Shown here: positions 5,679-57,530 of the stretch, piece after piece
Position numbering within the stretch: position 1 is the first letter of the stretch
Layout: each line of letters begins with the position of its first letter
Origin: Acidobacteriota bacterium
Lineage (GTDB): Bacteria; Acidobacteriota; Terriglobia; Bryobacterales; Bryobacteraceae
Assembly: GCA_026393985.1 (NCBI GenBank)
Contig: JAPKZB010000005.1
Coordinates: 1-57,530, forward strand
DNA: 57,530 nucleotides
Direction of reading: 5' to 3'
Translations under genes and position numbers: made by a program
Notes under the pieces: generated by a model
Databases searched by the model: none
What the model saw: the letters and a program-made list of their open reading frames with translations, nothing else
Told to the model about the DNA's origin: nothing

Positions 5679-6695
5679 ATGCCGCCGTTCCGTGTCGGGG
5701 TCACCCCGGACTTCTATGTCGATGCCAAAGGGCGCTTTGAGCACGTGGTCGAAGCCAAATTCGCCGTCCCCAATCTCGAGTGGGAAGCCATGCCCGAGAT
5801 GCCCGGCAACCATGCCACGCCGGAGGTCCTGAACCGTTACGATGCCGTCTTCGCGCTGTCGACCAAGATCGACGCCGAAAGTCTCCGCGGCGTCGACCGA
5901 CTTGCCATCGTCGCCCGCTGGGGCGTCGGTTATGACCGCATCGATACCGAGGCGCTCACGGCGGCCGACGTAGTCCTGGCCATCACCCCCAACGCCGTCC
6001 GCACCCCCGTCGCCGAAGCCATTCTCACGCTCGTCCTGGCCCTGGCCAAGAACCTGCTCATCCAGGACCGTCTCACCCGCCAGGGCAAATGGCGCGGCGA
6101 CCTGCCGCGCCTGGGCCGCAATCTGCGCGGTCAGGTGCTCGGCTCGATCGGCTGCGGCAACATCGGTCGCGAACTGTTCCGCCTCGCGCAGCCTTTCGGC
6201 TTCTCCCGCCTGCTGGCCCACGATCCCTACGTCGACGCGGTTGAGGGCGTCGGGATGGTGGATCTCGAAACCGTCTGCCGCGAGAGCGACTTTGTCTGCG
6301 TCAATACCCTGCTCAACGAATCGACCCGCGGCCTGGTGAACGAACGCCTCTTCCGCCTGATGAAGCCCACGGCCCACTTCATCAACACCGCCCGCGGTCC
6401 GATTGTCGATGAGACCGCGCTGATCCGGGCGCTCTCGGAGGGCTGGATCGCCGGCGCCGGTATCGACGTCTTTGAGCAGGAACCGCCCCGGCCGGATCAC
6501 CCGCTCTTCGCCATGGACAACGTCATCGTCACCCCGCACGGCCTGCCCTGGACCGAAGAGATCGCCCGCGACAACGGCCTCGAAGCCTGCGACAACATCC
6601 TTTCTGTCGCTCGCGGCCAGGCCCCGGGCGGCGTCGTCAACCGAGCGGTGCTCAGCCGCCCCGGATTTCAAAACAAATTGCAAAGGTATCTATGA
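5679..6695 (+). CDS. NAD-dependent D-2-hydroxyacid dehydrogenase
   Basis: The 338-residue protein has the D-isomer-specific 2-hydroxyacid dehydrogenase fold. It shows a Rossmann GCGNIG loop in the middle, NTARGPIVDE with the catalytic Arg, GIDVFEQEPP with the Glu, and VTPHGLPW with the His. The usual His-x-x-Trp spacing is kept. The product would be a 2-oxo acid, or the reverse. An in-frame ATG 12 bp upstream (5667) is possible, but the second ATG gives a more typical N-terminus (MPPFRVGVTPDF). It overlaps the aldolase gene by 4 bp, which suggests a joint route for a hydroxylated or sugar acid. Confidence 0.88.
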   Translation: MPPFRVGVTPDFYVDAKGRFEHVVEAKFAVPNLEWEAMPEMPGNHATPEVLNRYDAVFALSTKIDAESLRGVDRLAIVARWGVGYDRIDTEALTAADVVLAITPNAVRTPVAEAILTLVLALAKNLLIQDRLTRQGKWRGDLPRLGRNLRGQVLGSIGCGNIGRELFRLAQPFGFSRLLAHDPYVDAVEGVGMVDLETVCRESDFVCVNTLLNESTRGLVNERLFRLMKPTAHFINTARGPIVDETALIRALSEGWIAGAGIDVFEQEPPRPDHPLFAMDNVIVTPHGLPWTEEIARDNGLEACDNILSVARGQAPGGVVNRAVLSRPGFQNKLQRYL

Positions 6696-41568: not shown

Positions 41569-42414
41569 ATGGCTAACCGCCCGATGCGGATACCTTCTGG
41601 GCTGACCGGCAAAGGTCAAGCGATGGAGGAGGCTGGGCAAAAACTAAAAAGGGTTCGCGAGCGGTTGAACCTGCGGTATCGGGATGTTGAAGACGCTAGT
41701 CTGCGGATCGCCGAACGCCACCAAAACGACGAGTTTGTCGTAGCGCTGTCGCGCCTGTCCGATATTGAAAACAAGGGGACCGTGCCGACGGTCTTTCGGC
41801 TTTACACGTTGTGCACGATCTACCGCTTGGACCTGCTCGATGTGCTGCAGTGGTACGGCGTGGATCTGTCGCATCTGCCGGCGGATGCGGCGGCTATCGA
41901 ACTGGAAAAGACGCACGCGATCCAGTTTCAGGCTATTCATCATGGAGAGGTGCTGCTGCCGTTAGCGCTCGATCCGGGCCTTGATTTGACTAAGACCACC
42001 TACGTGAGCCGGATGATTCAGCGCTGGGGAAAATTGCCGCTCATGCTCTTGCATGGATTGGACTTGAAGACCCACCGGTATGCGTTTGTGGGCTCGGAGG
42101 ACTGGTCGATGTATCCGCTGCTGCAACCAGGATCCCTGCTGTTACTCGATGAGACGAAACGGAAGATCATCCCCTCCGGCTGGACCAACGAGTTTGACCG
42201 GCCGATCTATTTTCTCGAGCATCGCGAGGGGTACGCCTGCGGTTGGTGCAATCTGGATGGGAACCGGCTGGTTTTGCAACCCCACCCGGCGTCCATGTGC
42301 AACCCACAGGTCTTTCTGTTCCCGGACGAGATTGACGTCATCGGCCAGGTTACGGGCGTTGCTATGCGCCTTGACCAGGGGCGTCGACGCCGTGTCGGTG
42401 TTTCAACAGGCTGA
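41569..42414 (+). CDS. XRE-type helix-turn-helix regulator with extra C-terminal domain
   Basis: The 281-residue protein has an N-terminal helix-turn-helix region (GQKLKRVRERLNLRYRDVEDAS, LSRLSDIENKGTVPTVFRLYTLC), much like XRE repressors but with a long insert between the helices (IAERHQNDEF). The C-terminal 170 residues include EDWSMYPLLQPGSLLLLDE and a Cys-containing CGWCNLDGNRLVLQPHP, reminiscent of the S24/LexA-like fold though the Ser-Lys dyad is not clear. A good ribosome site (AGAGAAG) precedes the ATG. The palindrome upstream may be its operator. Its 3' end overlaps the converging gene by 53 bp. Confidence 0.75.
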   Translation: MANRPMRIPSGLTGKGQAMEEAGQKLKRVRERLNLRYRDVEDASLRIAERHQNDEFVVALSRLSDIENKGTVPTVFRLYTLCTIYRLDLLDVLQWYGVDLSHLPADAAAIELEKTHAIQFQAIHHGEVLLPLALDPGLDLTKTTYVSRMIQRWGKLPLMLLHGLDLKTHRYAFVGSEDWSMYPLLQPGSLLLLDETKRKIIPSGWTNEFDRPIYFLEHREGYACGWCNLDGNRLVLQPHPASMCNPQVFLFPDEIDVIGQVTGVAMRLDQGRRRRVGVSTG

Positions 42415-42820
42415 CGAGGGTCCTTAGGTCGGCGGAATAAAGCGCCTTTTCTGAGCCCATCACGCCGTTGGGGACGTACTGTTTCCAGGGCTCCAGCAGA
42501 TCCCACGCGGCGAGTATCTCTTTCATTGATCCCCCAATGTCGACGAGGTAGCCCACGAGGTCGCACTCTTGGCTGGCCAAATCCATGTTCAGCCAGTCGG
42601 CGAAGACCTGCTTGTGGTTCTGGCGCATGGCCTTGGAAGCCTGCTTTTCACCGAAAAGTAGAAAGAGGCCATGGTGCTCATACGTACCAGTGTTCGGGTT
42701 CCGGAGGGATGCCAGGTACTGAAGTTTGCCGAATTGGGTCGGAATCTGTGAGAGCGTATGGAGCCAAAGATCCTCTTTAGCATCTCGATCAAGCACACTT
42801 TTGGGCCGGGCGACGCGCAT
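42362..42820 (-). CDS. Conserved-looking hypothetical protein, no known domain
   Basis: The 152-residue protein is soluble, with no signal or membrane segment. It contains RDAKEDLWLHTLSQIPTQFG, then YLASLRNPNTGTYEHHGL, and a helical second half (MKEILAAWDLLEPWKQYVP). The ATG at 42820 follows GGGAGG at good spacing; a GTG seven codons upstream is also open. It converges with the XRE-like gene, which it overlaps by 53 bp at the 3' ends. I cannot assign a function. Confidence 0.65.
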   Translation of the reverse strand: MRVARPKSVLDRDAKEDLWLHTLSQIPTQFGKLQYLASLRNPNTGTYEHHGLFLLFGEKQASKAMRQNHKQVFADWLNMDLASQECDLVGYLVDIGGSMKEILAAWDLLEPWKQYVPNGVMGSEKALYSADLRTLVSLLKHRHGVDAPGQGA

Positions 42821-43240
42821 TGATTCACGCACCTCCCTCACAGTTTACCTCATTTTTCCCCGTTTGGTACGTTTCTCGATCCCGGAAATCGTTAGCGCGC
42901 AAGCGAACGCCGGGGAGTCTACCTGCGCAAATTCGAGAGCGTCCCTGTTCCAGATTCCGAAAGAGTCTAGCGCTTTCTTCCTAAGAGTCCTATTAGGACT
43001 ACACTCGAAATCACAGCAGACGCTCCTAGATTTTGTAGGCATCCTTGGGCCGAATACGAGTCCTTGTGCTGACCGTTCTGGCTGTGGTACTGGTACTACT
43101 ATAAATCAATGATTTTTTTGGTTCAATCTCGACCCTAACCGATTCGCTATTCGAGAGCCGGAAGCAGGGTCGTGTTTGTTTCCCGTTGGCCGATTCATTA
43201 CAAATCCTAATCCTGAAAACCGTCTTGGAGTTTAAAAATT
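42821..43240. other. 420-bp intergenic region upstream of repeat protein
   Basis: No convincing gene is seen. The sequence is less GC-rich than its surroundings. It holds a 15-bp palindrome (42987-43001), a TATAAA at 43100-43105, and an A/T-rich stretch ending in GGAG-TTTAAAAATT before the ATG at 43241. A 128-codon ORF across it on the plus strand starts inside the opposite gene and looks spurious. Long untranslated sequence of this size is unusual here and suggests regulation. Confidence 0.55.
42987..43001. promoter_or_regulatory. Palindrome AGTCCTA-T-TAGGACT
   Basis: Seven-base perfect arms around a single T, in the long intergenic region upstream of the repeat-protein gene. It could be a protein-binding site; nothing in the sequence says for which protein. 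Confidence 0.35.
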
Positions 43241-43813
43241 ATGAAGTCGTCAGTCCTATCCGTGTTGCTGTCGCTTGCTTTTGCTCTATCCCTGCCCGCC
43301 CAGGGAATTGGGTCGGGCCCCATGTCGATGATTGATGGAACCGGACAGTTGGGAGTGGTTGGTTCTCCTGGCGTCTCGTCTAATGATCAGAGCCTTATCA
43401 TTCCGATACCGGACTGTGGACCCTGCGAACCCGGTGACGACCCGTGGACCGAGGACGTAATTCCGCTGCCTCCGATGCCAAAGGCGCCCGGTTTGCCCAA
43501 GTGCTATCCGAATTGCGTGACGGAAGCCGTTGCCGAAGCCGCCCTATCTTCGAGCGAGCTGAGCCTCATCATTCCAATTCCGGATTGTGGACCCTGCGAA
43601 CCCGGTGACGACCCGTGGACGGAGGACGTGATTCCGCTGCCTCCGATGCCGAAGGCGCCCGGTTTGCCCAAGTGCTATCCGAATTGTGTGACGGAAGGCG
43701 TGAACTCTCAGCAAGTCCACTCTTTGGGGCTAATGTCCTGGAGCGCCAGGTTGCCTTTCGCAGTTCGGTCGGGAGCCCGCCTCGCCATCACGCGGGTGCG
43801 TGCCACCGCCTAG
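43241..43813 (+). CDS. Secreted tandem-repeat protein, Cys/Pro/Asp-rich
   Basis: The 190-residue protein has a signal peptide (to about PAQ21), a Gly/Ser-rich spacer, then two 45-residue copies at 51-95 and 108-152 separated by 12 residues. Each copy has the blocks SLIIPIPDCGPCEPGDDPW and LPPMPKAPGLPKCYPNC, with four Cys in two pairs (CGPC and CYPNC). The copies have identical amino acids although their DNA differs at eight third positions. After them is a basic, unrelated 38-residue tail. The Cys pairs suggest disulfides or metal binding. I know no family. Start: ATG after GGAG, 10-nt spacing. Confidence 0.8.
   Translation: MKSSVLSVLLSLAFALSLPAQGIGSGPMSMIDGTGQLGVVGSPGVSSNDQSLIIPIPDCGPCEPGDDPWTEDVIPLPPMPKAPGLPKCYPNCVTEAVAEAALSSSELSLIIPIPDCGPCEPGDDPWTEDVIPLPPMPKAPGLPKCYPNCVTEGVNSQQVHSLGLMSWSARLPFAVRSGARLAITRVRATA
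43391..43525 (+). repeat. Tandem repeat copy 1 (135 bp, residues 51-95)
   Basis: First of two in-frame copies, period 171 bp. It encodes the same 45 residues as copy 2 but differs at eight bases, all in third positions of codons. Confidence 0.92.
43562..43696 (+). repeat. Tandem repeat copy 2 (135 bp, residues 108-152)
   Basis: Second copy. Silent changes against copy 1 are CTT/CTC, CCG/CCA, ATA/ATT, GAC/GAT, ACC/ACG, GTA/GTG, CCA/CCG and TGC/TGT. Confidence 0.92.
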
Positions 43814-43971: not shown

Positions 43972-44751
43972 ATGCCTGCCCCTTTTCCAGTTCATCTTTG
44001 GATCAGTCTGGCGACCAGTCTCGGCGCTGGCATCGTTGCTGTCGTCCTCTGGCGACGAGGCTTGGCGCCGGCTTATCCAGGCTTCGTGGCGTATCTGATC
44101 GCAGAGTGTCTGTTAGGCGTTGTCTTCGGTGGTGCTGAATTGATGCTCGATCGCGCGATACACGCCGTCATAGCTCTTGGCTGCCTGCCCCTGCTGTGGA
44201 TCTTCTATCTGGTACTTGTCCGCGAAATTCATGGCAAATGTCTCGCTCGTTTTCCTGGAATTGCCAAGGTTGGTCAGCAGGTGCTCGTTTATGGGCTGGT
44301 CGGCGCGATCATCCTGTCCGTCGTCACTGTGCAACCAGATCTTCATGCGGAGAACCATGACGGAGCGCTCGGGGTCCTATACGTTACTGCTGCCCACCGG
44401 GTCATCACCGGAGGCGTCACCTTGTTCCTCCTGCTCCTCACCGTGATTTTAAACTGGTTCCCGGTGCCTACCTCCAACAACACCATTCTGCACACAACTT
44501 TCTCTTTTTTCTTCTTTTTGTCGATGACGGTGGCACACCTTTATCGGAATTTAAGCGGGAAAATGTTCACCTCTGGCGTCAACCTGGGCATCATGGCGGT
44601 TAGCACGATATGCCTGGCGGGATGGGGCTTTCTTCTGCAGCCGAAGGGAGAGGTGGTCGTGGCGACGGAATCGACCCCTCACGAGGAGACCAGCTGGATT
44701 CTGGCCCAGATGGAGGCCCTCAATCGGGCTCTTTTGCGCGGCGTAAAGTGA
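43972..44751 (+). CDS. Seven-transmembrane protein of unknown family
   Basis: The 259-residue protein has seven hydrophobic helices: about 8-28, 36-58, 64-84, 101-119, 132-160, 172-190 and 202-222. The C-terminal 35 residues are cytoplasmic, charged and helical (HEETSWILAQMEALNRALL). The longest outer loop is short, so no large sensor domain is present. I recognise no transporter or kinase motif. It follows the repeat protein after a hairpin and precedes a membrane-anchored protein, which makes a receptor or sensor role possible but unproven. Confidence 0.65.
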   Translation: MPAPFPVHLWISLATSLGAGIVAVVLWRRGLAPAYPGFVAYLIAECLLGVVFGGAELMLDRAIHAVIALGCLPLLWIFYLVLVREIHGKCLARFPGIAKVGQQVLVYGLVGAIILSVVTVQPDLHAENHDGALGVLYVTAAHRVITGGVTLFLLLLTVILNWFPVPTSNNTILHTTFSFFFFLSMTVAHLYRNLSGKMFTSGVNLGIMAVSTICLAGWGFLLQPKGEVVVATESTPHEETSWILAQMEALNRALLRGVK

Positions 44752-44922: not shown

Positions 44923-45462
44923 ATGATTTATTTTCCGTTCGTTGTCGGTGCCGTTGGAAGCATCATCTTCTTGGTCCTTTTGTCTCGTTTGTCGTCGGGA
45001 GCAAGGCGTGGTTCCCGCCGCGGGGAGAGCTTTGACCCGGAATGGTTTGAAACGTTTTCGGCCTTTCGCTACCTGCCCATGCGGCGCTTGTTGAATGGTA
45101 ACGATGAAGCTTATTTGCAGGGTCAAAACCTGGGCTGTCGAATGTCGCTTCGGGCTTTCCGGGCCGAGCGCCGCCAGCTATTTCGCATCTATCTTGAAGA
45201 TTTGCGATCTGATTTCTATCGCTTGAGCTTGGGCGCCAAGCAGGCGATTTTGAACTCCGCGGACGACCACTCGCACCACGTTGAGACGCTACTGAGTCTG
45301 GAGTGGCGCTTTCAAAAAACCCTTTGGCGGGCCAAGGCCGGGCTTGTTCTGCATGCCTGCGGCTGGTCGGTGAGCGACGCGTCAGATCTTATTGACGTTT
45401 TGCAGCATTTTGAGTTCAGCCTCCGCGAAGCTTATCTCGCTCAAAACGAATCGGCAGTTTAG
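44923..45462 (+). CDS. Hypothetical protein with N-terminal membrane anchor
   Basis: The 179-residue protein has one hydrophobic helix at 4-22 and then a basic linker (SGARRGSRRGE), so the bulk faces the cytoplasm. The soluble part is helical, with FRAERRQLFRIYLEDLRSDFYRL and a C-terminal HACGWSVSDASDLIDVLQHF. No known domain is seen. It has a good Shine-Dalgarno site (GAGGAAG). It is 171 bp after the 7-TM gene, same strand, with a hairpin between them. Confidence 0.6.
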   Translation: MIYFPFVVGAVGSIIFLVLLSRLSSGARRGSRRGESFDPEWFETFSAFRYLPMRRLLNGNDEAYLQGQNLGCRMSLRAFRAERRQLFRIYLEDLRSDFYRLSLGAKQAILNSADDHSHHVETLLSLEWRFQKTLWRAKAGLVLHACGWSVSDASDLIDVLQHFEFSLREAYLAQNESAV

Positions 45463-45509: not shown

Positions 45510-47135
45510 ATGCACGCCTTTATGCTTGTCCTGGTGACTTCGACGTTTTGCCTCTTGGCCCAGAACGCGGCCCCTAGTCACTGCGTCGTCTCCTCGAATG
45601 GCGCCCCGACTCTACCTGCCAAGCTGCTCACTGGCCAGGGCCAAGTCTCCTTTCCGATCACTACGCGCAACCCAGAGGCGCAGAAGTTTTTTGAACAGGG
45701 CGTTGCGCAGATGCACTCCTTCTGGGCGCGCGAGGCCGAACGGAGTTTCCTGCAGGCCGCCGCCCTCGACCCGGATGCGCCCATGCCGTGGTGGGGCGTA
45801 GCAATGGTCGCCGCCGGCGACTACCGCCCTCATTTTCAACTGGTCCGGGACAAGAATGCCACGCCCAAGGGGATGACGCCACCCTTGCAGCGGGCCGTCG
45901 AGGCCTCGAAAAAGGCGCAGACGCTGGCCAGCAACGGCAGCGCCCGCGAACGGGCCTACATCGATTCCATCGCCGCTCGCCGGCAGTTTCCGCTGGACGA
46001 TGCCGCTGCCGATGCCGCATACTTGAGCGGGTTGCGCGCCATCCTCGCGCAGTCTCCGGACGAGGTGGAAGCGGCCACCTACCTGGCCTTGCACCTAATG
46101 GACGGCTTTTTGACCCCCAGCCGCCAGCCGCGCCCCGGTTCCATGGAAGCCGCGCGCATTCTGAAGGACCTCGTCGTCCGCGTGCCTAATCATCCCGGAG
46201 TCCATCACTACGTCATCCATGGCTGGGAGGGTTCTTCGTTCGCCAAAGATGCCTGGAGCAGTTGTGAACGATACACGGCGCTGGTGCCCGAGATTCCCCA
46301 CGCGCTGCACATGCCGGGGCATATCTATTCGCAAACCGGAAAGCTGCAGGAGGCCACCGCCAGTTTCGTCTCCGCCGGACACTTGGAGCGGGCCTACATG
46401 AAGGCCGATCCGGGCTACGGCAATCTGCACCACGGTCACAACATTCACTACCTCGCCGTTGTGCAGGCCGCCGCTGGCAACTATGATGACGCGCTGCGGT
46501 CGGCCCGCGAACTGCTCAACTTCAAGGAATCCGCAGCCGAGGCCAAACAGCTCGACAACTCCCGCACCGCCTACCGGCAGGGCTGGTTCGCGCTGCTGCG
46601 CACGCTGGTTTGGGGGGAGCGCTGGGACGCGCTGCTCGACCCGGCCTCGCTGCCTGTTATCGCCAAGCCACGCGAACAGGCCTGGACGCATTGGGCCCGC
46701 GGTTTGGCCTACGCCGCCAAGGGCGATGTCGACCGCGCTCGCCTCGAGGCCCGGGACATGCGCGCCGCCCTGAAGGATTTCGAGGTGCAGAACAAAACCA
46801 AGTACCCCCGGGAGCTCGGCCTCGCCGAGCAGGAGTTGCACGGGCATATCACCCTGGCCGGCGGAAATGTCTCGCGCGGGCTCAAGATTCTCTCCGACGT
46901 CTCGCGGGGAGAGCGCGCGCTGCGCTACAACGAACCGCCCTACTACCCCCGTCCTGTGGCCGTTGCCTGGGCCGGCGCTGCCGCCAAGGCCGGCAAGCGG
47001 AAGGAGGCTGAACTGGCCTATCGCATCGCGCTCGAAGAGTTTCCGGCCATGGAGCGCGCCGTGCGCGGACTCCAGCACTTGTTGAGCCACGCCCCCAAGC
47101 CGGGGGATAAGCGCGACGATGGCGGCCTCGAATAG
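45510..47135 (+). CDS. Exported TPR-domain protein
   Basis: The 541-residue protein has a signal peptide (to about LLAQ18) and TPR-like helices throughout (EAQKFFEQGVAQMHSFWAREAERSFLQAAALDPD split over 54-90, AMVAAGD, and helical pairs to residue 520). Conserved-looking motifs are HMPGHIYSQTGKL, GHNIHYLAVVQAAAGNYDDAL and GHLERAYM, which contain His but no clear enzyme site. It is probably a periplasmic or surface scaffold. It overlaps the next gene by 17 bp. Confidence 0.75.
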   Translation: MHAFMLVLVTSTFCLLAQNAAPSHCVVSSNGAPTLPAKLLTGQGQVSFPITTRNPEAQKFFEQGVAQMHSFWAREAERSFLQAAALDPDAPMPWWGVAMVAAGDYRPHFQLVRDKNATPKGMTPPLQRAVEASKKAQTLASNGSARERAYIDSIAARRQFPLDDAAADAAYLSGLRAILAQSPDEVEAATYLALHLMDGFLTPSRQPRPGSMEAARILKDLVVRVPNHPGVHHYVIHGWEGSSFAKDAWSSCERYTALVPEIPHALHMPGHIYSQTGKLQEATASFVSAGHLERAYMKADPGYGNLHHGHNIHYLAVVQAAAGNYDDALRSARELLNFKESAAEAKQLDNSRTAYRQGWFALLRTLVWGERWDALLDPASLPVIAKPREQAWTHWARGLAYAAKGDVDRARLEARDMRAALKDFEVQNKTKYPRELGLAEQELHGHITLAGGNVSRGLKILSDVSRGERALRYNEPPYYPRPVAVAWAGAAAKAGKRKEAELAYRIALEEFPAMERAVRGLQHLLSHAPKPGDKRDDGGLE

Positions 47136-56830: not shown

Positions 56831-57530
56831 TTAGCGGTTGCGTCCGCCCCCGCCGCCGGCCCGGCCCACGCCGCCCTCGCGGGAGCCGCCGCCCCCGGGT
56901 TCAGCCCCCGGACCACTCGACCGTTCGCGGACCACCGGTCCCTCCATCCGTCCGCCCCCCGGCATGGAAGGCGCACTGTTGAAACCGCCACGGGACCGGC
57001 CGCCCATGCCGCCTTCCCCCATGCCGCCTCCATTGGACGAGCCCCGCGAACCACCGCCACCGCCACCGAACCGTCCCCAGCCGCCGCCGTCGCTGCCCCG
57101 ATTGCTTTCGCTGCGAGCGCCGGAACCGCCAAAACGACCCGCGCCCGCCCCGTCATCGCCCCGGCTGCTCTCGCTGCGCGCGCCCGAACTGCCGAACCGT
57201 CCCCAGCCGCCGGAGTCTCCTCCCCGGTTACTCTCGCCCCGGGTCACGGCCCCGCCGGCGTCCCCGCGGGATGCCCCATCGCCGAACCGTCCCCAGCCGC
57301 CGGTATCGCCCCCGCGGTTTCTCTCACCCCGGGTGAGTTCGCCCCCCGCATCCCCGCGGACGCCGCCATCACGGTTCACCGCCCCGCCCGCGTCCCCCCG
57401 CGACGTCCCGTCTCCGAACCGCCGCCAACTACCGTTATCAGCGCCCCGGTTCATCTCCCCCCGCGTCACCGGCCCCCCCGCATCCCCGCGGACGCCGCCA
57501 TCACGGTTCACCGCCCCGCCCGCGTCCCCC
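56831..57530 (-). CDS. Gly-rich repeat protein, 5' end beyond window
   Basis: The frame is open from the stop at 56831 to the last base of the window, at least 232 codons; the ATG-like GTG at 57511 lies inside a repeat and is not the start. The sequence is built of Gly, Arg, Asp and Ser with periodic W-G-R-F-G blocks. Copies of about 44 residues share SRGDAGGAV and NRDGGVRGDAGG. The C-terminal 70 residues lose the periodicity and are Gly/Ser/Arg-rich (SRGSSNGGGMGEGGMGGRS). It could be an exported surface protein, an RNA-binding RGG-type protein or a structural one. Composition is extreme and repeats may be mis-assembled. Confidence 0.75.
   Translation of the reverse strand, partial: GDAGGAVNRDGGVRGDAGGPVTRGEMNRGADNGSWRRFGDGTSRGDAGGAVNRDGGVRGDAGGELTRGERNRGGDTGGWGRFGDGASRGDAGGAVTRGESNRGGDSGGWGRFGSSGARSESSRGDDGAGAGRFGGSGARSESNRGSDGGGWGRFGGGGGGSRGSSNGGGMGEGGMGGRSRGGFNSAPSMPGGGRMEGPVVRERSSGPGAEPGGGGSREGGVGRAGGGGGRNR
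57349..57398 (-). repeat. Exact 50-bp repeat, copy A
   Basis: Identical to 57481-57530; the period is 132 bp (44 codons), in frame with the Gly-rich gene. More diverged copies lie at about 57066 onward. Confidence 0.9.
57481..57530 (-). repeat. Exact 50-bp repeat, copy B (at window edge)
   Basis: Matches copy A over all 50 bases and runs to the end of the window, so the true repeat is longer or continues past it. Confidence 0.9.

Follow-up and report, generated by a model that had tools for sequence, protein, structure and literature searches.

How does a small bacterial protein outside the recognised families come to carry the same 45 residues twice, spelt with different codons, and what are the copies for? 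The question is raised by a locus of a soil bacterium of the Acidobacteriota (class Terriglobia, family Bryobacteraceae; assembly GCA_026393985.1, contig JAPKZB010000005.1), of which the first 57,530 nucleotides, read on the forward strand, were analysed as a whole and are called the window here. The gene in question encodes a 190-residue protein with a predicted secretion leader, and with a probability of about 0.9 it is considered to be the precursor of a peptide, with each copy serving as a functional unit. By its sequence, the gene is the multi-copy form of a putatively secreted Pro/Cys peptide family of the Bryobacteraceae (Acidobacteriota), encoded beside the gene of an undescribed seven-helix transmembrane protein (TM).

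The precursor and its repeated units

The precursor open reading frame (ORF) and its parts are as follows.

43241..43813, + strand: precursor ORF of 190 amino acids, with a predicted leader at about residues 1-22, two 45-residue units and a 38-residue tail
43391..43525, + strand: unit 1, 45 codons, residues 51-95, as set by the codon comparison
43526..43561, + strand: unrepeated linker AVAEAALSSSEL between units 1 and 2
43562..43696, + strand: unit 2, 45 codons, residues 108-152, the same protein as unit 1

The protein of both units is SLIIPIPDCGPCEPGDDPWTEDVIPLPPMPKAPGLPKCYPNCVTE, and the codon comparison bore out an earlier note on this DNA, which had described two in-frame 45-codon repeats with the same protein and eight silent differences: eight codons differ, all of them at the third base and all silently, and the residues that flank the units on the outside are dissimilar between the copies. 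The same pair was returned by a repeat finder (155 nucleotides at 90%) and by Tandem Repeats Finder (TRF; period 171). Were every single-base change tolerated to the same degree, eight silent differences out of eight would arise by chance with a p of 0.8e-5 to 6e-5, the range reflecting the weight given to transitions and transversions. The unit is Pro-rich and acidic and contains two Cys pairs (CGPC and CYPNC), as the earlier note had also stated, which might form disulfides in the mature peptide. The sequence GGAG at 43227-43230 stands 10 nucleotides ahead of the ATG of the precursor, whose signal peptide and cleavage site were judged by eye and by composition. No dibasic site adjoins the units, and no single Lys or Arg precedes the next core in the window either.

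The description of the secreted protein as belonging to no recognised family was likewise correct. Pfam gave only four matches to the precursor, all below the cut-off, NCBIfam gave none, and the PADLOC and PHROGs models gave only weak matches (best E 0.009), with none of PADLOC for the precursor. A sequence match in the PDB to PMGL2, the best of six weak ones (E 0.009), was dismissed as weak and as spanning a unit together with the tail. The peptide patterns of the window protein, run against GTDB contigs, produced 36 pattern matches and zero relatives, and in the window genome (G000, 5.9 Mb in 96 contigs) the sole match of the precursor was its own gene.

Constraint on the copies

A protein search with the precursor among 237 genomes of the same family clearly matched, besides its own genome, the congeners G091 and G092, and it gave five further weak matches (E 0.004 to 0.008). 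In both congeners the homologue sits, as in the window, between a regulator gene and the TM gene. Their unit of 42 residues, present in two copies in G091 and in three in G092, is identical in protein in all five copies and unlike the window unit. Each of the six cross-species copy pairs shows 13-16 silent and no replacing differences per 42 codons, and the differences within a species are also exclusively silent (4 in G091; 6, 8 and 9 in G092); in the TM gene, with its 259 codons, the same two species differ silently at 80 codons and by a replacement at 61. Given these counts, each residue of the unit is held by selection across those species. The window unit differs strongly from that of G091, though the window copies match each other, and therefore the copies seem to evolve in concert within a genome; this likeness may reflect concerted change, or copying followed by constraint.

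In those genomes of the genus where the slot could be located, it is also occupied by arrays of shorter units, such as nine of the type NILPIPKCYPC... in G097, seven KILPVPDCWPC... in G100, and further arrays in which G086 has eight units, G099 six, G098 four, G087 eight distributed over two contig ends and G095 at least seven, and several contigs of the genus end within an array. The core common to these arrays is [ILV][ILV]P[ILV]P[x]C[x]PC, departures from which are rare, and the longer unit with the second Cys pair is found in the window, G091 and G092, while G090 holds one similar long unit. The DNA pattern for the core matched 71 of the 237 family genomes, mostly with single matches, several of which adjoin a TM gene.

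Extra copies of the peptide thus arise by two routes, as tandem genes and as in-frame arrays that comprise 2 to 9 units, and both allow silent and replacing changes to be counted. In seven genomes with tandem genes (the comparison requiring only two Cys; L171 and L199 were omitted as duplicates of genomes that had been counted, and no pair was found in L159), the peptide part shows 97 silent and 0 replacing codon pair-differences (367 cells), against 162 silent and 93 replacing for the leader (606 cells). In 21 arrays, 85 of the 92 variable core columns are silent-only, as compared with 44 of 80 in the linkers (Fisher p 1e-8), although pair-differences within an array are non-independent, the choice of cores by motif favours the conserved Pro and Cys, and linker columns were scored only for units of equal length. 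A single Lys or Arg precedes the next core in several arrays. The predicted layout is accordingly that of a putative signal peptide and, behind it, one peptide in several copies, which are more constrained than the spacers.

These comparisons, between copies and across orthologues, had been proposed in the earlier note, and they confirm the constraint on the unit. Its two interpretative claims, that selection preserves each residue and that both copies are functional units, find support in the five-copy identity across G091 and G092, in the 97:0 ratio of the tandem genes and in the codon comparisons between copies and across species. Homologues with freely differing copies, which were to speak against these claims, were not found; nevertheless, a few replacing changes do occur and count against strict constraint, since four of the 21 arrays (L046, L052, L053 and L057) carry one to three replacing core columns each, and the two tandem copies in L273, from another family, differ at one tail residue. 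A reading without any special constraint would see only recent duplications, with the silence due to chance or mutational bias. The window alone offers only eight differences, and the match of its copies alongside the difference between the window and G091 units indicates that turnover happens. Against this stand the chance p of about 1e-5 to 6e-5 for the window, the absence of replacing changes in G091 and G092 and the 97 to 0 count of the tandem genes, so that this explanation is considered very improbable.

Basic form of the peptide and its linkage to the TM gene

The genes that accompany the precursor in the conserved locus are listed below.

41569..42414, + strand: candidate regulator of 281 amino acids with a helix-turn-helix (HTH, XRE-like) at the upstream end of the conserved locus, HTH models being below the cut-off
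42362..42841, - strand: conserved protein of 159 amino acids, its end overlapping the end of the regulator, recognised from conservation counts
43972..44751, + strand: TM, predicted seven-helix membrane protein of 259 amino acids, of an undescribed family, recognised from an AlphaFold2 model, family search and conservation pattern
44923..45462, + strand: P179, a protein of 179 amino acids with one N-terminal hydrophobic helix and a helical domain, predicted by AlphaFold2 (pLDDT, the predicted local distance difference test, 90.4)

Outside the genus the peptide is mostly found in a basic form, a precursor of about 38 residues that consists of a leader and a short tail of the PxPxCxPC type, usually with a C-terminal Arg or Lys. 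The sample comprised 60 TM loci beyond the genus and nine regions found by pattern, and the linkage was scored in the 68 TM loci with at least 500 bases upstream. The typical ORF upstream of TM on the same strand has 36-50 residues, namely a leader, PxPxCxPC and a few further residues, often ending in ...WVR. Under a strict rule, a secreted ORF with CxPC lies upstream on the same strand in 43 of the 68 loci, while the control positions yielded none in four cases (0 of 68 each for the antisense strand upstream, for both strands downstream and for the strand opposite TM) and one in the stretch further upstream (1 of 68), and shuffled sequences yielded 1 in 1360; chance small ORFs were rejected as a source of the strict-rule result by these position and shuffle controls. 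By eye, an array or a variant was recognised in 18 of the 25 loci that the strict rule missed; the remaining seven are without the regulator, too. A relaxed rule found a candidate peptide in 54 of the 56 loci with the regulator and in 3 of the 12 without it, the two misses with the regulator (L043 and L044) plainly holding arrays, but it is less specific than the strict one, as its position controls gave 0, 11, 2, 0 and 3 of 68 and its shuffles 64 of 1360.

The peptide genes also have translation signals: a Shine-Dalgarno-like site precedes 50 of the 51 starts, tandem copies counted, where shuffles expect 15.5. A C-terminal Lys or Arg ends 36 of the 41 single-core peptides against a background of 3.5%. 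In a second set, made of the best 80 of 126 regulator relatives, TM is present at 55 of the 80 loci, 44 of which have a strict CxPC peptide; of the remaining eleven, ten have arrays or variants and one, L248, has no recognisable peptide. The two locus sets (L042-L176 and L177-L256) overlap, and their counts are not additive. In L251 (strain KBS 96, 5880-6435) the same slot is filled with a Cys-free array, ...AEIPMPDPNSPKRPTLT..., whose repeats contain a run of N, and the array of L175 is likewise Cys-free with the Pro pattern. Disulfide formation or metal binding as the general essence of the motif was rejected on these two cases, which keep the Pro pattern without Cys.

The seven-helix membrane protein

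TM matches were found in 162 of the 237 family genomes and in 65 of 76 genera (E<=1e-8), while Pfam at E<=0.01 had zero match among 52 TM members. The AlphaFold2 model (pLDDT 87.2; predicted template modelling score, pTM, 0.83) looks like a bundle of the G protein-coupled receptor (GPCR) or rhodopsin kind, with weak Foldseek similarity: microbial rhodopsins and GPCRs from several classes rank highest among its structural neighbours, at a best E of 0.09. TM, P179 and the regulator had no match to the PDB by sequence, and a Foldseek comparison of TM with a viral structure library gave nothing at E<=0.001. Lys occurs in helix 7 only at columns 197, 200, 220 and 221, in 1 to 4 of 52 rows, and because no helix-7 lysine is conserved, TM is not regarded as a retinal protein. 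The side predicted to be cytoplasmic has the more positive charge. The outer half is the more variable one (mean entropy 2.71 versus 2.10 in the cytoplasmic half, p 8e-9), and 28 of the 30 most conserved positions lie in the cytoplasmic half or the tail, a pattern that looks receptor-like.

That the secreted peptide is a signal received by this seven-helix protein is given about an even chance. A competing view takes the product for a secreted, bacteriocin-like antimicrobial, with TM giving immunity or exporting it. Small secreted Pro/Cys peptides adjoining a membrane protein would suit such a function, the copies could raise the dose, and TM diverges along with the peptide (see below). Bacteriocins are usually patchy in their spread, whereas the synteny of this locus is wide: besides the 65 of 76 genera with TM, 56 of 75 TM loci have the regulator upstream on the same strand, 50 of 75 the opposite-strand ORF and 56 of 75 P179 downstream on the same strand. 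The conserved side of TM is, moreover, the cytoplasmic one, which would be unexpected for an immunity protein that faces a peptide outside. The antimicrobial explanation is therefore held to be unlikely.

Neighbouring genes

Precursor, TM, P179, the regulator and the opposite-strand protein of the window have no Pfam or NCBIfam family above the cut-off, eight window proteins having been scanned by Pfam and six plus the flavoprotein named below by NCBIfam. P179 had no Pfam match in 15 members and no Foldseek match in the PDB at E<=0.001; it is possibly a signalling or accessory partner. HTH_31 matches 11 of 14 regulator relatives (E<=0.01), and Pfam showed no tetratricopeptide repeat (TPR) in the regulator, whose C-terminal half had no match in the Pfam scan and presumably resembles a LexA/S24-type domain, judging from an SMxPxxxPG motif. 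A hidden Markov model of the opposite-strand 159-residue protein matches 79 of the 80 named regulator loci, and Pfam on 15 members of this protein gave one match (E 0.021). A TPR protein at 45510-47135, the third gene downstream, has no HTH match and a secreted-like start; it is visible in 7 of 75 loci, most of the others having too little downstream DNA. Running off the window end, a Gly-rich repetitive ORF lies at 56831-57529 on the - strand, with repeats of the type GWGRFG...SRGDAGGAVTRGE and TRF periods of 42-132 nucleotides.

A flavoprotein gene (PF02441) is present at 45 of 75 TM loci. As PF02441 also includes peptide cysteine decarboxylases, this gene fits a product of the kind of ribosomally synthesized and post-translationally modified peptides (RiPPs), for which TM and P179 would be maturation or export factors; multi-copy cores with a leader, and a peptide that co-diverges equally with TM and P179, point in the same direction. 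The window copy is named as a UbiX family flavin prenyltransferase by NCBIfam above the cut-off, so that a housekeeping enzyme is likelier. It is, furthermore, the only candidate, the other scanned neighbours matching no described modifying enzyme in Pfam and NCBIfam, though an undescribed one may be present, and the leader resembles an ordinary signal peptide. A RiPP-like product is thus regarded as quite unlikely.

Co-divergence, spread and exceptions

Over 44 loci, the peptide distance correlates with the TM distance after removal of the regulator distance (partial r 0.32, p 0.0005), whereas the correlation with the regulator after removal of TM is -0.06. Over the 30 loci with all parts, removal of the regulator leaves a peptide-TM value of 0.245 (p 0.002), or of 0.278 (p 0.0125) over the 23 loci outside the window genus; removal of the opposite-strand ORF leaves 0.22 (p 0.0015) and that of P179 0.08 (p 0.13). 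P179 co-diverges with the peptide much as TM does, and therefore peptide, TM and P179 appear to change together, and either membrane protein could be the contact of the peptide.

The tight gene linkage and the co-divergence with both membrane proteins would also be compatible with a role of the peptide in envelope structure or assembly, in which it would belong to a TM/P179 complex as a subunit or stabilise it, with the copy number setting the stoichiometry. Such a role by itself accounts neither for the many genomes in which identical short units recur as tandem genes or arrays nor for the variable outer half of TM, and it is rated as improbable.

The association of the genes is not without exceptions. 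In L204, L210 and L235 the peptide gene lies away from TM, but each of the three genomes has TM elsewhere, which favours the pairing. L242 has two identical tandem peptide genes by the regulator, and TM and P179 were not found in its 5.7-Mb genome; L250 has no peptide at the locus, and its genome shows neither TM nor P179. For L203, L209 and L225, TM lies elsewhere in the genome and the regulator locus has no recognisable peptide; a TM gene in the L225 genome is preceded by a small secreted peptide of another kind (...APPPCCPPICKK). P179 has four and three matches per genome in G634 and G635, with one of TM, and the regulator loci there, L203 and L209, have P179.

In a sample across the phylum, the TM profile matched 41 of 396 genomes, namely two of the own family, 38 of another family of the same class and one of another class. 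Of 18 loci outside the window family, five have upstream small secreted peptides with a PxPxC-like motif, among which L270 and L271 have three gene copies each with identical tails, and in a further three loci the small secreted peptides lack Cys. These data are suggestive of a peptide-TM pairing beyond the window family. Cys-free peptides of the types ...VVTGTDPQP... and ...VTGGDPQP... precede the seven-helix gene in L263-L265, which belong to the second family of the class.

Comparison with known systems and proposed mechanism

Fungal prepro-alpha-factor and other Kex2-processed repeat proteins combine a signal peptide with several peptide copies per gene, as described in PMC5850478 and PMC7329392. 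The peptide family presented here is similar to prepro-alpha-factor in its multi-copy genes and in the variation of copy number between close relatives; unlike the Kex2-type fungal precursors, it is bacterial, has no dibasic site by the window units and has a single-copy basic form of about 38 residues. No sequence relation to the fungal precursors turned up, and no search was aimed at one. The yeast pheromone receptor is a seven-helix protein, as TM is predicted to be. Among bacterial systems, Paenibacillus AloR-AloP of the RRNPP family, as outlined in PMC7425212, has a Sec-exported pre-pro-peptide and an intracellular TPR receptor. The likeness lies in a tiny precursor with an N-terminal signal sequence beside a presumed receptor, but the presumed receptor of the locus is a predicted seven-helix membrane protein, the HTH regulator has no TPR match, and the divergence of the regulator fails to track the peptide once TM is removed. 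In systems of the Agr/ComD type, a polytopic membrane protein is encoded beside a small peptide gene, as here; since the 259-residue TM has no Pfam match, it has no recognisable histidine kinase domain, in which it differs from the Agr/ComD receptors, and an AgrB-like model had no match among eight window proteins. Unlike the retinal rhodopsins, TM lacks the conserved Schiff-base lysine of helix 7. A stand-alone seven-helix receptor of GPCR-like architecture is not known to sense peptides in bacteria.

In the proposed mechanism, the peptide would leave the cytoplasm by the Sec route, be trimmed to its mature form and act beyond the inner membrane on the adjoining TM, which would read it with the variable outer face and relay the signal through the conserved cytoplasmic face, perhaps to P179; the adjacent regulator might be linked to the response. 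Copying of the gene or of the repeat unit would provide more peptide, the dose being the putative reason for the copies, and selection would hold each copy at a single exact sequence, that being the one which the partner accepts. The broader picture, in which Acidobacteriota of the Terriglobia talk via ribosomal Pro/Cys peptides and a stand-alone receptor of GPCR-like architecture, with copy number as dose and the peptide as species-specific password, is put forward tentatively and falls short of even odds.

Significance

Acidobacteriota are among the commonest soil bacteria. Literature searches, which covered neither subscription papers nor preprints, listed among their top matches no paper on Acidobacteriota peptide signalling or on this system, and an Acidobacteriota genome survey (PMC5900883) gave no match to quorum, pheromone or three similar terms. 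Peptide genes of this kind are easily missed, owing to their short or repetitive precursors and to arrays within which a number of the assemblies break off. The locus described here, conserved family-wide and composed of a tiny, putatively secreted peptide, a predicted seven-helix partner and a possible helper, matches no described family above the cut-off with these three in the window, and, if peptide and TM are a true ligand-receptor pair, it would offer a bacterial model for ligand-receptor coevolution and for the evolution of dose by repeats.
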